Shown one piece after another: positions 21,787-27,712 of a stretch of 35,535 nt of DNA. The notes beneath the pieces were generated by a model, which was given only the letters and a program-made list of their open reading frames with translations, was not told where the DNA came from and searched no databases. The stretch spans positions 1 through 35,535 of the forward strand of contig JAQXTC010000011.1 in NCBI GenBank assembly GCA_029219285.1, read 5' to 3'. The DNA is from Clostridiaceae bacterium. GTDB lineage: Bacteria; Bacillota; Clostridia; Clostridiales; Clostridiaceae. Numbering within the stretch: the stretch's first letter is position 1; every line of letters begins with the position of its first letter. The position numbers and the translations under genes were made by a program.

Positions 21787-21815
21787 TTGAAAATGTTTTT
21801 CAAAAGTAATAGTAT
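21787..21815 (+). promoter_or_regulatory. Probable promoter of the glutaredoxin gene
   Basis: TTGAAA (21787-21792) and TAGTAT (21810-21815) are separated by 17 bases, about 40 bases before the ATG. Confidence 0.6.
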
Positions 21816-21855
21816 ATTAATGAATAATAATTATTCCTTAACGGAGGTGTTAATA

Positions 21856-22083
21856 ATGGTAAAAGTTTATACTACTGATTCTTGTCCTTGGTGTGTAAAA
21901 GCTAAAAACTATTTAAAATCTAGAAATGTAAGTTTCGTAGAATTGAATGTAGCTGAAGACATGGAAGCTAGAGAAGAAATGCTAAAAAAGTCTAAGCAAA
22001 TGGGAGTTCCTGTTTTAGACATAAACGGAACAGTTATTATTGGTTTTGATAAGCCTGCTATTGATACAGCTTTAAGTAACTAA
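21856..22083 (+). CDS. Glutaredoxin-like thiol oxidoreductase (CPWC)
   Basis: This 75-residue protein has the thioredoxin fold, MVKVYTTDSCPWCVKAKNYL. The CPWC active site is at residues 10-13, the cis-proline segment is MGVPVLDING and the C-terminus is IIGFDKPAIDTAL, all of NrdH/YruB-type glutaredoxin pattern. I place the start at 21856 with GGAGGTG six bases upstream; the frame extends further back without a ribosome binding site. It faces trxB tail to tail. In clostridia lacking glutathione such small glutaredoxins can be reduced by thioredoxin reductase-like proteins, so a functional pair is likely but inferred. Confidence 0.92.
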   Translation: MVKVYTTDSCPWCVKAKNYLKSRNVSFVELNVAEDMEAREEMLKKSKQMGVPVLDINGTVIIGFDKPAIDTALSN

Positions 22084-22130: not shown

Positions 22131-23060
22131 TTATAATGAATTAATATACTTTTCAGCCTCTAAAGCAGCAATTGTTCCATCTGCTACTGCTGTTGTAATT
22201 TGTCTATACTCTTTATCTCTAACATCACCAGCGGCAAATACTCCTTTTACATTTGTCCTCATATGATCATCGGTAATTATATATCCTTTTTCTGTAAGGT
22301 CTAAATCACCTTTAAATTCATCTGTCTTAGGATCAGTTCCTATGTAACCAAATACAGCATCCATTTTAATTGTTTTTTCTTCACCAGTAATCATGTCTTT
22401 TATAATTGCTTCTTTTACAAAATCATCACCTTGAACATCTATAAGATCTTTATTATAAAGAATTTCAATTTTTTCATTTTGATTTGCTTCTTCAAATACA
22501 GACTTCTCACCTCTAAAGTAATCATACCTTCTTATAATATATACTTTTGATGCAAATCTTGATAAAAATACAGCTTCTTCAAGTGCAGCATTTCCACCAC
22601 CAACAACTCCAACTACTTTATTATCATACATTGCTCCATCGCAAACAGCACAATAATGAATTCCTTTCCCTTCATATCTGCTTTCATTTTTAATTGGTAA
22701 TTTTCTAGGTGTAGCACCAGTAGATATTATTACAGTTTTAGGTTTATAAATATAACTTTCTGTTTCTATTATATTTTTTCCATCTTTAAGACTAACACTC
22801 TCTACTGGATCAAATTCATCTATAACTGCACCCATAACTTCTGCTTGTTCTTGCATCATATCTGCAAGCTTAGAACCCTCTATTTTCTTAAATCCAGGAT
22901 AGTTTTCAATAGTATAACTATTTCTTACTTGACCGCCTACAAAGGCATTCTCTAATAATACCATATCAAGTTTTGCACGTGATGCATATATAGCCGCAGT
23001 AAGACCAGCTGGACCTCCTCCTAAAATAACTAAATCTATTTCTTTAACTTGTTTATTCAA
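22131..23060 (-). CDS. trxB: Thioredoxin reductase (NADPH, FAD)
   Basis: TrxB passes electrons from NADPH through FAD to thioredoxin or glutaredoxin. The 309-residue protein has the FAD loop VILGGGPAGLTAAIYASRA, the redox site CAVCDGAMY (CAVC, two Cys), the NAD(P) loop GVVGGGNAALEEAVFLSR and the C-terminal VFAAGDVRDKEYRQITTAVA. I take TTG at 23060 as start, with AAGGAG eight bases upstream; a longer frame reaches 23081 but overlaps that ribosome binding site. It lies between clpC and the glutaredoxin gene, with its own likely promoter. Confidence 0.94.
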   Translation of the reverse strand: MNKQVKEIDLVILGGGPAGLTAAIYASRAKLDMVLLENAFVGGQVRNSYTIENYPGFKKIEGSKLADMMQEQAEVMGAVIDEFDPVESVSLKDGKNIIETESYIYKPKTVIISTGATPRKLPIKNESRYEGKGIHYCAVCDGAMYDNKVVGVVGGGNAALEEAVFLSRFASKVYIIRRYDYFRGEKSVFEEANQNEKIEILYNKDLIDVQGDDFVKEAIIKDMITGEEKTIKMDAVFGYIGTDPKTDEFKGDLDLTEKGYIITDDHMRTNVKGVFAAGDVRDKEYRQITTAVADGTIAALEAEKYINSL

Positions 23061-23096
23061 AAAATCCACTCCTTGTAGCACTACAAATATTATCTA

Positions 23097-23186: not shown

Positions 23187-25643
23187 TTATTTGATTCCTT
23201 CTATTGCTTTTATACTATTAAATTTTAATTTATCTTTATTGACTGAAACTAATAAGCTATCGCCTTTATTAACATTACCTATTAACATTTCTTCACTTAA
23301 TCTGTCTTCCACTTCTTTTATTATTACTCTTCTTAGTGGTCTAGCTCCAAAATTCAAATCAATTCCCTTATCAATCAAGAATTTTTTACTATCATCATTA
23401 AATTGTAAACTGATATTATTTTCTTTTAAACGTTCACCTATAGAATTAAGCATTAAATTTAGTATTGATGACATATTATCTTTAGTTAACTTATGGAATA
23501 CTATTGTCTCATCTAGTCTATTTAAAAATTCAGGTTTAAATGTTTTTTTGAGTTCCTGCATAACATTTTCCTTCATCTTTTCGTATTCACCGTCATCTGT
23601 TGAATCAATTGAAAATCCCATAGACTTTTGCTTTTTAATAGTATGTGCTCCAACATTAGAAGTCATTATAATTATTGTATTTTTAAAATTAACAACTTTG
23701 CCCTTACCATCTGTAAGTCTTCCATCCTCCATAATTTGAAGCAATATATTAAATACATCAGGATGAGCTTTTTCTATTTCATCAAGTAACACAACTGAAT
23801 ATGGTCTTCTTCTTACGGCTTCTGTAAGCTGACCACCTTCTTCGTATCCTACATATCCTGGAGGTGCACCAATTAATCTAGAAACAGTATGTTTTTCCAT
23901 ATACTCAGACATATCTATTCTTATAATACTATTTTCATCTGAAAACATTGCTTCAGCTAAAGCTTTACAAAGTTCAGTTTTTCCAACTCCTGTTGGTCCT
24001 AAAAATATAAAACTTCCTATTGGTCTCTTTGGATCTCTAAGTCCTACTCTTGATCTTCTTACAGCTTGTGCTACAGCCTTTACTGCTTCATTTTGACCTA
24101 TTACTCTCTTATGGAGAGTTTCTTCAAGTTTTAATAATTTATCACTTTCTTTTTGTGTAAGTTTTTCCACAGGAATCTTAGTCCACTCAGCTACAATTTT
24201 AGCTATATTATTTGCGTGTACTGTCAATACTGCATTTGCTCCACCTATACTCCAATTTTCCTTTAATCTTTCAAGTTTGTCTTTAAGTTCTCTTTCACTA
24301 TCTCTAAGAGTAGCTGCTTTTTCAAAATCCTGCATCCTGACAGCTTCCTCTTTTTCTTTTACTACATTATCAATATCTCCCTCAATTTCCTTTAAATCTG
24401 GTGGTACCACAAGATTTTCAATACGTATCTTTGCTGATGCTTCATCCATTAAATCTATAGCCTTATCTGGCATAAATCTATCATTTATATATTTATCAGA
24501 TAGTTCAATAGCTGCATCTAATGCTTCATCTGTTATCTTAACTCCATGATGCTGCTCATATTTAGGTCTTAATCCTTTAAGAATTGCAAGAGTTTCTTCT
24601 TTATCAGGTTCTCCAATTGTTACTGGCTGAAATCTTCTTTCAAGGGCTGAATCTTTCTCTATATACTTTCTATACTCATCAGTAGTAGTTGCTCCAATAC
24701 ATTGAATCTCACCTCTTGCAAGAGCTGGTTTTAATATATTCGATGCATCTATTGCTCCTTCAGCTCCACCTGCACCAACTATAGTATGAATTTCATCAAT
24801 AAAGACAATAACTTCTTTATTATCTTTTAATTCATCCATTACTTTTTTTAATCTTTCTTCAAATTCACCTCTATATTTTGCACCAGCTACCATTGAACTT
24901 AAATCTAAACTCACAACTCTTTTATCCTTTAGATTTTCAGGAATATTTCCTTCAACTATTCTTTGAGCTAATCCTTCAACTACTGCTGTTTTTCCAACTC
25001 CAGGATCTCCTATCAAACATGGATTATTTTTAATTCTTCTACATAAGATTTCTAATACCCTTTGGTTTTCAGCATCTCTTCCTATAACAGGATCTAACTC
25101 ATCATTTCTTGCTGCTTCAGTTAAATCTCTACTGTATTTATCTAATGTTGTTGTTTTTGATTCTTTTTTCTTTTCTTCACTTTGCCCAGCATTTTGATCA
25201 ACAGATTTACCTGATAAAAGTTTCATAATATCTTTATTCAAGCCTGTAAAATCAATGTTAAGTTGATAAAGTATAGTATATGCTACACCTTCTTGTTCTT
25301 TAATTAACGCTAAAAGTAAATGTTCAGGGCTTACATACTTATGATTTAAATTTTTAGCTTCTTCAAAACTTTTATCAAAAACTTTCTTAGTTCTTGGTGT
25401 AAGTAGTAATTCACCTTTAGGCATAGATGATTCTCCATATCCTAAATAATCTTCTATAAAATTCTTTACTACTTTTTCTTCTACTCCATACTTAACCAAT
25501 AAATTTCTGGATTCTCCACCTTCAATTAGCAATCCTAAAAGAATATGTTCTGTTCCTATATATCCATGCTTATATTTTTGCGATTCTTTCTGAGCTTCAA
25601 GAACTACAACTTGTGCTCTCTCAGTAAATTTACCGTATGTCAA
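23187..25643 (-). CDS. clpC: ATP-dependent protease regulatory subunit ClpC
   Basis: ClpC unfolds substrates for ClpP. The protein has about 818 residues. The N-domain starts MTYGKFTERAQ and keeps both glutamates that bind phosphoarginine in Bacillus ClpC (IGTEHILLG and VSPEHLLLA). Then come Walker A1 GDPGVGKT (about 212-219), a UVR/middle domain (RMQDFEKAATLRD), Walker A2 GPTGVGKT, and the C-terminal D2 small domain. TTG at 25643 is the better start (GGAGG eight bases upstream); a GTG at 25652 lies inside the ribosome binding site. It is the last gene of the ctsR operon. Confidence 0.96.
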   Translation of the reverse strand: MTYGKFTERAQVVVLEAQKESQKYKHGYIGTEHILLGLLIEGGESRNLLVKYGVEEKVVKNFIEDYLGYGESSMPKGELLLTPRTKKVFDKSFEEAKNLNHKYVSPEHLLLALIKEQEGVAYTILYQLNIDFTGLNKDIMKLLSGKSVDQNAGQSEEKKKESKTTTLDKYSRDLTEAARNDELDPVIGRDAENQRVLEILCRRIKNNPCLIGDPGVGKTAVVEGLAQRIVEGNIPENLKDKRVVSLDLSSMVAGAKYRGEFEERLKKVMDELKDNKEVIVFIDEIHTIVGAGGAEGAIDASNILKPALARGEIQCIGATTTDEYRKYIEKDSALERRFQPVTIGEPDKEETLAILKGLRPKYEQHHGVKITDEALDAAIELSDKYINDRFMPDKAIDLMDEASAKIRIENLVVPPDLKEIEGDIDNVVKEKEEAVRMQDFEKAATLRDSERELKDKLERLKENWSIGGANAVLTVHANNIAKIVAEWTKIPVEKLTQKESDKLLKLEETLHKRVIGQNEAVKAVAQAVRRSRVGLRDPKRPIGSFIFLGPTGVGKTELCKALAEAMFSDENSIIRIDMSEYMEKHTVSRLIGAPPGYVGYEEGGQLTEAVRRRPYSVVLLDEIEKAHPDVFNILLQIMEDGRLTDGKGKVVNFKNTIIIMTSNVGAHTIKKQKSMGFSIDSTDDGEYEKMKENVMQELKKTFKPEFLNRLDETIVFHKLTKDNMSSILNLMLNSIGERLKENNISLQFNDDSKKFLIDKGIDLNFGARPLRRVIIKEVEDRLSEEMLIGNVNKGDSLLVSVNKDKLKFNSIKAIEGIK

Positions 25644-25666
25644 AACTTTCACCTCCCAATTTATTT

Positions 25667-26683
25667 CTAATCTAATAAAGTTCTCATAACTTTAGCCCTT
25701 TCTATGTCTATATCAAAATCATTAGCTTCTAAATTATTCTTTGTATTAATAAAGGAATCTTTTGTTTTAACCATAATATAATTTAAAATTCTTTTATTGA
25801 TATTTAAAAATCCTAGTTCAGAGCCTAATTTAATATCTGATAATAACTCTAATGCTTCTTTTTCTTTTAAAATTCTAGCATTTTTTAATATTCCATAAGC
25901 TCTATATATCTTATCTTCTAATTGATACTTATGTTCTAACAACATTATTTCTCTACATTTCTTTTCTGCTGATATAATATCGTATATTGTATCCCTCATA
26001 CTTTCAATTATTTGTTTCTCATTAGAACATATTGATGGCTTATTATAAATTTTATATATATTACCAGTAGAATTTAATCTTTCTCCATACAATCCTTCTA
26101 TTACTATTCCCGCTTCATTTAGGCTTTTATCAACATTCTCCATTTCTCCACTTTTAGTTATACCAGGTAAATGTAATATTGCACATACCTTAAACCCAGT
26201 GCCTAAATTTGCAGGATTTGAACTAATATATCCATATCTATCACTAAATGCATATGACATATCTTTACCAATGTAATCATCGACTTTGTTTATATATTCA
26301 TATATATTTTCAAAGTTTAATCCATCTACTATACATTGTATTCTTAGATTTTCTTCCTCATTTATCATTATTGATAATGTTTGGTTTTTATTCACAATAA
26401 ATGCAGACTTATCTTTCCTTTCTATTAATTTATTATTAATAATCTGCATATCTTTATACATTTCAATATTATTTGCATCAATTTCCCAAAGCTTAATAAG
26501 TTCTAAATCATCATCATAAAGCTTGTTTGATATTATGTTAAAAATGTTATCTACATAACTTCTGGCTTCATCATCTTTCATCTTGTCGGTAAACTTATTA
26601 TCATTAAAGTTTCTACCAAGGCTCATTGAAGTATTGATAACAATATCACTAGGATCTAATTCACTCTCCATCCAGTTTCTCAT
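25667..26683 (-). CDS. mcsB: McsB homologue, probably inactive protein-arginine kinase
   Basis: McsB normally phosphorylates arginines to mark proteins for ClpCP. At 338 residues the fold is recognisable: IMINEEENLRIQC, ANLGTG, GLYGE, LEDKIYRAYGILKNARIL. Many catalytic positions are changed. SSRIRLARN is NTSMSLGRN (17-25), losing two arginines; the Cys of CPTNxGTG is Asn (N156); the Arg after GTG is Lys (K165); the Arg before GLYGE is Glu (E196). Of the usual phosphate-binding arginines only that of NLRIQC clearly remains. The frame is intact, so it is conserved as protein, perhaps as a CtsR/ClpC adaptor. It starts 2 bases after mcsA. Confidence 0.88.
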   Translation of the reverse strand: MRNWMESELDPSDIVINTSMSLGRNFNDNKFTDKMKDDEARSYVDNIFNIISNKLYDDDLELIKLWEIDANNIEMYKDMQIINNKLIERKDKSAFIVNKNQTLSIMINEEENLRIQCIVDGLNFENIYEYINKVDDYIGKDMSYAFSDRYGYISSNPANLGTGFKVCAILHLPGITKSGEMENVDKSLNEAGIVIEGLYGERLNSTGNIYKIYNKPSICSNEKQIIESMRDTIYDIISAEKKCREIMLLEHKYQLEDKIYRAYGILKNARILKEKEALELLSDIKLGSELGFLNINKRILNYIMVKTKDSFINTKNNLEANDFDIDIERAKVMRTLLD

Positions 26684-26685
26684 TC

Positions 26686-27198
26686 TTATACTTCCCTCTC
26701 TGAATTTATTGCATTAATTTTATCTCTTATAGTTGCTGCTTTTTCATACTCTTCAGCTATAATATATTTTTGAAGTTCAAGCTTTAAGCTTTTCAGTGTA
26801 TCTTCAACTTTTTCTATAATTTCTGGTTTTGATGGAACCTTACCTGTATAAATGCAATTAGGATTTGATTTTTCTATAATTGGATCTAAATACTCACTAA
26901 AACTTTCATAGCACTTAGGACAACCTAATTTACCTGACTCCTTATACTTAGAATAAGTTGTTCCACACTTTTTACATATAACATCTATCTTAGCTTCAAT
27001 ATTTCTTTCTTGACCAAAATAATCATTCATCATTTTTTCCAAAGAACTCATATCTCCTTGACTCACCATTGTAAAAAATGAATTACTAGACAACTCTTTA
27101 GCACATTGTTCACATAACCATATTTCACTTTTCTTACTATTAACCATTTTTACTAGATGAATTTTAGCTTCATTCTTCTTACATTTTTCACAAAGCAT
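26686..27198 (-). CDS. mcsA: McsA, zinc-binding activator/adaptor of McsB
   Basis: McsA activates McsB and acts as a ClpC adaptor. The 170-residue protein keeps four CxxC pairs: CEKC (3-6), CEQC (29-32), CKKC and CPKC in the middle, which should bind zinc. It ends in a UVR motif (LQKYIIAEEYEKAATIRDKI) of the kind that binds ClpC. The zinc and UVR parts look normal although the partner McsB is divergent. It is the second gene of the operon, 16 bases after ctsR. Confidence 0.95.
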   Translation of the reverse strand: MLCEKCKKNEAKIHLVKMVNSKKSEIWLCEQCAKELSSNSFFTMVSQGDMSSLEKMMNDYFGQERNIEAKIDVICKKCGTTYSKYKESGKLGCPKCYESFSEYLDPIIEKSNPNCIYTGKVPSKPEIIEKVEDTLKSLKLELQKYIIAEEYEKAATIRDKINAINSEREV

Positions 27199-27214: not shown

Positions 27215-27670
27215 TTAAGATAATATAGCCATTAGCATAGCTTTTAAAACTTCAGCTCTAACTTTGTTCTTGTCTTCTATAGCATTTAAAGTTCTATCAT
27301 TTATAGCCATTTTCATTATTTCTAGTTCTCGTTTAGTTATTAAATCGGATTCATATACTCCTTCTAATACGGAGTTTGCATTATGATAAGTAATTGAATT
27401 ACCAATTGTATCATTAATTAATGTATTTCTTACATCTGCTTTATCATTAGCTAACTGTTTAATTACAATATAGCCTCCTCCACCCCTTCTACTCTCTATT
27501 ACATATCCTTTATCATAGGTGAATCTTGTAGTTAATACATAATTTATTTGAGATGGCGCGCATCTAAACTGATCTGCAAGTTCATTTCTTTGAATTTGTA
27601 CTTGTTGACCACCACTTTCACTAAGCACTTCTTTTATAAAACTTTCTATTATATCTGAAAGTCTTGCCAT
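27215..27670 (-). CDS. ctsR: CtsR, class III stress-gene repressor
   Basis: CtsR represses clp genes and senses heat through its Gly-rich wing. The 151-residue protein begins MARLSDIIESFIKEVLSESG. The winged helix (ELADQFRCAPSQINYVLTTR) carries the wing SRRGGGGYIVIK with four glycines, as in heat-sensing CtsR. AAGGTG precedes the ATG. It heads the ctsR-mcsA-mcsB-clpC operon and should repress it via the operator at 27696-27712. Confidence 0.97.
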   Translation of the reverse strand: MARLSDIIESFIKEVLSESGGQQVQIQRNELADQFRCAPSQINYVLTTRFTYDKGYVIESRRGGGGYIVIKQLANDKADVRNTLINDTIGNSITYHNANSVLEGVYESDLITKRELEIMKMAINDRTLNAIEDKNKVRAEVLKAMLMAILS

Positions 27671-27695: not shown

Positions 27696-27712
27696 CTTGA
27701 CTTACTTTGACT
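27696..27712 (-). promoter_or_regulatory. CtsR operator
   Basis: On the minus strand AGTCAAA-GTA-AGTCAAG is a direct heptad repeat matching the CtsR consensus (RGTCAAA NNN RGTCAAA) except for the last base. It lies just downstream of the predicted transcription start. Confidence 0.85.

Follow-up and report, generated by a model that had tools for sequence, protein, structure and literature searches.

The window analysed here, the 35,535-nucleotide stretch at positions 1 to 35,535 of contig JAQXTC010000011.1 from a Clostridiaceae bacterium (assembly GCA_029219285.1), carries the operon ctsR-mcsA-mcsB-clpC on its minus strand (Table 1). Among bacterial protein arginine kinases McsB is the model case, a single protein in which the kinase, adaptor and CtsR-stripping roles are hard to separate. 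An earlier reading of the sequence alone had proposed that the McsB of this operon has lost most of its kinase active site, and its description of the locus was borne out: the mcsB frame is open and full length, and CtsR, ClpC and McsA, the last with eight cysteines in four CxxC pairs and a UVR motif, look normal.

Table 1. Genes, active-site codons and regulatory elements of the operon region, in window coordinates
Feature	Position	Strand	Basis
mcsB, catalytically degenerate McsB, 338 aa	25667..26683	-	open frame, alignment, profile and structure matches
Codon Ser19 instead of Arg (6fh1 R32)	26627..26629	-	alignment
Codon Ser21 instead of Arg (6fh1 R34)	26621..26623	-	alignment
Codon Glu109, Glu of NEE retained (6fh1 E124)	26357..26359	-	alignment
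Codon Arg114, Arg of RIQ retained (6fh1 R129)	26342..26344	-	alignment
Codons 146-152, loop equivalent to S. aureus McsB Y147-Y153 docking McsA	26228..26248	-	alignment
Codon Asn156 instead of essential Cys (6fh1 C171; S. aureus C157)	26216..26218	-	alignment
Codon Lys165 instead of Arg (6fh1 R180)	26189..26191	-	alignment
Codon Glu196 instead of Arg (6fh1 R211)	26096..26098	-	alignment
Codon Glu201, Glu of YGE retained (6fh1 E216)	26081..26083	-	alignment
mcsA, eight Cys in four CxxC pairs and UVR	26686..27198	-	profile matches, alignment
ctsR repressor, Arg62 and tetraglycine wing kept	27215..27670	-	profile match, alignment
Direct repeat resembling a CtsR box (2 mismatches), 25 bases ahead of ctsR	27696..27712	-	place and conservation
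clpC unfoldase, both pArg-pocket glutamates kept	23187..25652	-	profile match, alignment
Thioredoxin-reductase gene, between clpC and radA	22131-23081	-	TIGR01292 above cut-off
Glutaredoxin-family gene, between clpC and radA	21787-22083	+	profile match

Active site and fold of the window McsB

Active-site positions are given in the chain numbering of Geobacillus stearothermophilus McsB (PDB 6fh1). Alignment to this structure upheld the five proposed substitutions, those of R32, R34, C171, R180 and R211, so that five of the eight core residues are replaced and three are kept. Phmmer alignments to 6fh1, 6tv6, 8wtb and 8gqd gave the same residue pairing, and the conserved arginines and cysteine have therefore not been displaced to other positions of the protein. 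Further changes relative to 6fh1 affect His95 (Gln80), His127 (Asn112) and Thr173 (Ala158). The allosteric R341 is changed as well (Ile325), which tells little because this position is variable in intact McsB too. In all, the cysteine and most of the arginines are lost, and both acidic residues and one arginine remain. The McsB residues are taken to have counterparts among those of arginine kinases. In one study, the cysteine of S. aureus McsB is described as essential, and four arginines of the cluster as guiding ADP/ATP in an arginine kinase (PMC12467219).

Over its full length, the protein has the sequence and fold of the McsB family. PF00217 matches it with an E value of 1.2e-49, and an AF2 model built from 36 sequences (mean pLDDT 90.2) finds its best Foldseek matches in 6fh1 and 6tv6, with TM values of 0.92-0.94 by query length and an rmsd of about 2. 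Five NCBIfam protein-arginine-kinase models also match, all below their cut-offs, the nearest with 328.8 vs 385 bits. A second McsB, which the sequence-only reading had advised seeking, was not found, this McsB being the sole PF00217 match in the genome (96.5% complete). Judged by sequence, there is strong support for regarding the window McsB as a pseudokinase.

Spread through the family and fate of the YwlE-type phosphatase

Of the 206 family genomes surveyed, 68 belong to the window's genus (g1), whose members are inferred to include C. vincentii, C. uliginosum, C. sardiniense, C. paraputrificum, C. beijerinckii and C. chromiireducens. A PF00217 match turned up in 156 genomes, all of which were examined: 153 gave full or near-full sequences, G060 two contig-end pieces, G204 a contig-end fragment, and G200 a broken fragment with a stop. 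With intactness defined by the eight core residues, McsB was intact in 106 genomes (counting G204, in which all four visible core residues are canonical), degenerate in 50, and not found in 50. The core scores are sharply split, either eight of eight or at most six, with none at seven (the G204 fragment aside). All 41 g1 genomes carrying McsB have a degenerate core and make up the degenerate set together with G100, G101, G180, G196-G199, G201 and the G200 fragment; outside g1, 106 of 115 McsB keep all eight residues (G204 included). The pseudokinase assignment, originally made for one protein, thus extends with strong support from alignment to the whole genus.

McsB was not found in the other 27 g1 genomes, and the window McsB used as a query recovered the same 41 of 68. 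CtsR is kept in 22 of these 27 (three of the remaining five have a completeness of 78-84%), and at all 22 loci clpC directly follows ctsR, both mcsA and mcsB being missing from the stretch; McsA, looked for near ctsR-clpC in these 22 loci, was not found. For g1, both the second query and the ctsR-clpC junctions thus support absence; outside g1, absence is supported by the PF00217 search plus the lack of a tblastn match beside ClpC in ten such loci, some survey genomes being incomplete. A control panel of 14 known genomes, B. subtilis included, gave a PF00217 signal in none and a CtsR signal in L. lactis only; B. subtilis has both McsB and CtsR. In genus g5 (G071-G087), seventeen genomes gave no match to McsB, CtsR or the YwlE pattern, and ClpC was found in all four tested. 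At locus L325 (G200:C66), PF00217 matches no more than a fragment interrupted by an in-frame TAA, and an open McsA-like frame nearby has kept six of the eight cysteines; here McsB seems to be breaking up ahead of McsA. Neither an inactive McsB nor a loss of McsB in Clostridium was reported in the titles and abstract starts among the matches listed from the open-licence PMC literature.

The kinase site appears to have been lost repeatedly. R32 and R34 are lost and C171, R180, R211 and E216 kept in the McsB of G065 (C. uliginosum, by inferred name), and R32 and R34 are kept and C171, R180, R211 and R129 lost in that of G037. Because no single event accounts for both patterns, the site would have broken at least twice inside g1, provided that lost residues were not regained. 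Further core losses are found in g10, g33 and g43; within g33, G180 is degenerate and G179, from the same genus, intact. On a ClpC and CtsR tree of 188 rows, whose supports are soft because a quick method and a simple model were used, eight changes between intact and not intact are needed. The first FastTree tree had given only two supported contrasts; for its extension, the ClpC of 15 hand-picked McsB-less genomes (including 4 of the 17 of g5) was sought, of which 13 matched and 11 were added.

To follow the eraser of the mark, LMWPc (PF01451) proteins were classed by their P-loop, the YwlE type being C-x-x-N-T-C-R-S, with a Thr after Asn that we take to confer arginine specificity. A single amino acid is reported to decide this specificity (PMC5506225). 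Curated models were rejected as a means of separating YwlE from other LMW phosphatases, since the NCBIfam matches of two YwlE-type proteins all fell below cut-off and bore other names, and the class is accordingly defined by the P-loop alone. The corresponding DNA pattern gave 106 matches in the 206 genomes and none for the reversed-pattern control; 105 of these lie inside PF01451 matches, the one outside (G031) was left uncounted, and eight inspected variants (C[AS]GNTCRS) were added. On this count, a YwlE-type P-loop occurs in all 106 intact genomes, in 5 of the 50 degenerate ones and in 2 of the 50 in which McsB was not found (Fisher p 7e-51 with kinship ignored); with kinship taken into account, six of six independent supported contrasts agree on the association with McsB state (p 0.031). 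In genomes without the pattern, P-loop variants were read for a part, the remaining PF01451 scores being low, and proved to be arsenate-reductase-like (CVHNSCRS), NICRS, or odd (G066). YwlE had also been named in the sequence-only reading as something to look for: the pattern search of the window genome (96.5% complete) gave no match, and its sole PF01451 match has the P-loop CVHNSCRSQMAE, with arsenate reductases as its best NCBIfam matches, below cut-off.

Seven non-intact genomes have a YwlE-type P-loop (L200-L206). Six of them, G016, G017, G024, G030, G055 and G064, fall within one g1 subclade and carry CTA or CTV instead of CTG, and G020 stands apart. These seven phosphatases without an intact McsB are possibly orphaned or retargeted. 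Because loss of the YwlE P-loop accompanies loss of the kinase site, phosphoarginine itself seems to be gone, arginine-phosphate signalling having been lost rather than supplied by a substitute kinase. The earlier suggestion that another kinase supplies the mark is contradicted by the same counts, with a YwlE-type P-loop in 7 of 100 non-intact vs 106 of 106 intact genomes.

Constraint on McsB and its operon partners

Purifying selection on degenerate mcsB is indicated by omega values of 0.105-0.229 in five close pairs (four from g1, one from g10), of which three remain after a dS filter of 0.1-2, with a median of 0.178; intact pairs have a median of 0.08 (23 of 24 pairs with dS 0.1-2), all frames beginning at the upstream stop and including a few non-coding codons. 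The degenerate values are about 1.3 to 3 times the intact median, so that part of the pattern reflects relaxed constraint. Of the 41 g1 McsB, which share only 30 to 52% identity with the window protein, 40 have open, full-length frames, and the remaining one is divided between contig ends. With its catalytic residues lost, its fold kept and its gene under purifying selection, the window McsB has the attributes of a pseudokinase.

The erosion is unevenly distributed. Among the 54 sites that hardly vary in intact McsB, the 41 g1 rows (excluding one half of the split gene) show 21 still conserved and 23 strongly eroded, most of the latter within active-site motifs. Mean entropy rises from 1.14 to 1.65 in the phosphotransferase C-lobe, vs 1.74 (intact) and 1.73 (g1) in the dimerization domain, with approximate domain borders; only this contrast between parts is meaningful because the sets differ in breadth (one genus vs many). 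Over the lid loop the value climbs from 0.95 to 1.92 bits. In S. aureus McsB, the loop Y147-Y153 is reported to dock the zinc finger of McsA (PMC12467219), and R262-E277 is a published interface pair. The docking stretch, residues 144-153 of the window McsB, moves from rank 55 of 222 ten-residue windows in the intact set to rank 1 in g1, being the most conserved ten residues of the pseudokinase phosphotransferase domain, and also loosens slightly (0.79 to 0.98 bits, with 82 of the 222 loosening no more). At the positions of the interface pair (R261 and E276 here), Arg is found in 39 of 41 g1 McsB (Lys in two) and Glu in all 41, and another published contact, at position 270, is variable in both sets alike. 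A search for a shared switch residue that might mark a new function yielded only one weak Leu/Ile switch, and the idea was rejected.

The eight McsA cysteines are kept in 41 of 41 g1 rows (Cys6 in 40). The McsA N-terminus also matches that of ClpE (PDB 29hb, whole-sequence E 4.8e-5), and the two proteins may for this reason share a zinc-finger domain. The earlier idea that McsB now serves as a structural adaptor with McsA gains indirect support from the retained docking loop, interface pair, McsA cysteines and dimerization domain.

Since the single CtsR-box match in the whole window, with two mismatches, is no more than chance provides (mean 0.71), the evidence for it lies in its place and its conservation in relatives: 42 of the 45 degenerate loci have a box with at most two mismatches before ctsR, as do 30 of the 33 intact loci and 20 of the 22 without McsB, vs 8 of 2000 shuffles. 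A search of the window's own genome revealed two further boxes, before a ClpB gene and an HSP20 gene (one match for the reversed-pattern control). Next to the tetraglycine of the CtsR wing, residue 67 (27470-27472) differs between the groups: 26 of the 33 intact rows have Cys there, and 28 of the 41 g1 pseudokinase rows have His; in the 22 rows without mcsA and mcsB it is Tyr (14) or Cys (8).

The two ClpC glutamates that bind phosphoarginine, to which the sequence-only reading had drawn attention, are kept as described, and as a clue to a living mark they proved uninformative. E32, E106 and K85 are invariant in 104 intact, 50 degenerate and 22 absent rows (two loci gave no ClpC), with some neighbouring residues looser in the absence of McsA and McsB (T81 in 13 of 22, E94 in 2 of 22). 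The pockets are also reported to hold the ClpC resting state (PMC12583610). Because the glutamates are kept in 22 of 22 genomes without mcsA and mcsB and have this second published role, they are not diagnostic. The reductase and glutaredoxin genes beside clpC were likewise set aside as evidence of a redox function: trxB comes after clpC in 10 of the 13 named relatives, and likewise in 13 of the 22 loci without mcsA and mcsB (some loci being short), and is therefore a habit of the genus independent of McsB.

Possible roles of the McsA-McsB pair

On balance, McsB is probably a pseudokinase in a genus that has abandoned arginine phosphorylation, with McsA and McsB persisting as a non-catalytic pair, most likely as a thiol/zinc switch on CtsR. 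Briefly, reduced McsA would hold McsB and oxidised McsA would let it go, whereupon the released McsB would strip CtsR from its operator; removal of CtsR would activate clpC and, probably, clpB together with the small heat-shock gene, all without catalysis, and heat induction would rest on the thermosensor of CtsR itself. This mechanism, inferred by analogy, follows the thiol-stress branch described for B. subtilis, where oxidised McsA frees McsB and CtsR is stripped from DNA independently of the kinase (PMC5506225). The same three proteins and the operator are found here, with the redox or zinc cysteines of McsA and the docking loop of McsB kept (CtsR is missing from 5 of 50 degenerate genomes), but B. 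subtilis McsB is a kinase too, and the kinase branch of the window appears to be gone. In C. beijerinckii, ferulic acid is reported to induce genes orthologous to the clpC operon (PMC4406174).

The window protein shares family, fold, two-domain architecture, operon and McsA partner with the McsB arginine kinases of Bacillus, Geobacillus and Staphylococcus (6fh1, 6tv6, 8gqd), from which it differs in its replaced core residues, its scores below the NCBIfam cut-offs and a genome without a YwlE-type P-loop. It likewise resembles bacterial serine/threonine pseudokinases, in which catalytic residues are lost and the fold is kept and conserved, but its fold is of the phosphagen-kinase type, and a review of these pseudokinases sets arginine kinases aside (PMC12599244). 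CtsR also works alone in systems without McsA and McsB, as in the 22 g1 loci, whereas the window keeps both genes; the L. lactis control genome gave a CtsR signal and no PF00217 signal, and some low-GC Gram-positives are reported to have neither McsA nor McsB (PMC5506225).

A close rival, considered possible though unlikely, is that the pseudokinase pair acts mainly on ClpC, as an adaptor, tether or inhibitor at its N-domain, CtsR being incidental. Its closeness stems from the five degenerate genomes without CtsR (G100, G101, G196, G199 and G200), because of which CtsR cannot be the sole partner; 16 of 106 intact genomes likewise have no CtsR. Degenerate McsB in a genome without CtsR is found at loci L099 and L100 (G100, G101) and L322 and L323 (G196, G199). 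In L099 and L100, mcsA and clpC lie beside mcsB, and with CtsR missing from these genomes the operon partner can only be ClpC. The ClpC N-domain contact sites are intact, and MecA, another ClpC adaptor, was sought as a replacement and rejected, being found in 0 of 68 g1 genomes (the control was positive in B. subtilis and L. lactis). However, all 41 g1 genomes with McsB have CtsR, 22 have ClpC without McsA and McsB, and in B. subtilis the ClpC adaptor function of McsB is reported to require kinase activity (PMC5506225).

That McsB is a functionless, decaying remnant heading for deletion is more doubtful still. Such decay would agree with the clean loss of mcsA and mcsB from 22 g1 genomes, with the nesting of two of these, G016 and G017, among degenerate relatives on the tree, with the raised omega, and, outside g1, with the stop-bearing fragment of G200. 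Yet omega stays well below 1, the g1 frames remain open despite their divergence, erosion is centred on the active site, and the McsA cysteines and McsB docking loop are kept.

It is very improbable that McsB is still a kinase of altered chemistry, acting through lysines or relaxed residues. Both acidic residues and Arg114 remain in the window McsB, and the five arginine positions hold Arg or Lys at three positions in 22 of 41 g1 sequences, at four in five, and at all five in one. Of 203 scored cells at the arginine positions, 91 hold Lys and 22 still Arg, and with so many arginines replaced by lysine, anions may still be bound to some extent. Against continued catalysis, the replacing residues vary within g1, the cysteine position and lid loop are eroded, and YwlE is mostly gone. 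Supply of phosphoarginine by an unrelated kinase, with McsB merely helping, is hardly tenable: phosphoarginine is reported in Mycolicibacterium, for which no McsB homolog is known (PMC9604228), but the window genome offers neither a YwlE-type P-loop nor a second PF00217 match, and the ClpC pocket glutamates are not diagnostic.

Returning to the non-catalytic pair, the chances appear evenly balanced that the whole genus dismantled phosphoarginine signalling in several independent steps, with the kinase inactive or deleted and YwlE mostly lost, most lineages retaining the inactive kinase and the zinc-finger protein McsA as a dedicated, catalysis-free redox sensor on the heat-shock repressor CtsR and forming a clade of phosphagen-kinase-fold pseudokinases. 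Proteins matching protein-arginine-kinase models across the genus are probably not kinases, and phosphoarginine proteomics in the genus is predicted to come up empty. Evolution seems to have separated the kinase role of McsB from its other roles here. One family offers kinase-free McsA-McsB pairs (C. beijerinckii and relatives), pair-less relatives and intact relatives, and because all three states occur within it, a non-catalytic role of McsA-McsB should be directly testable.
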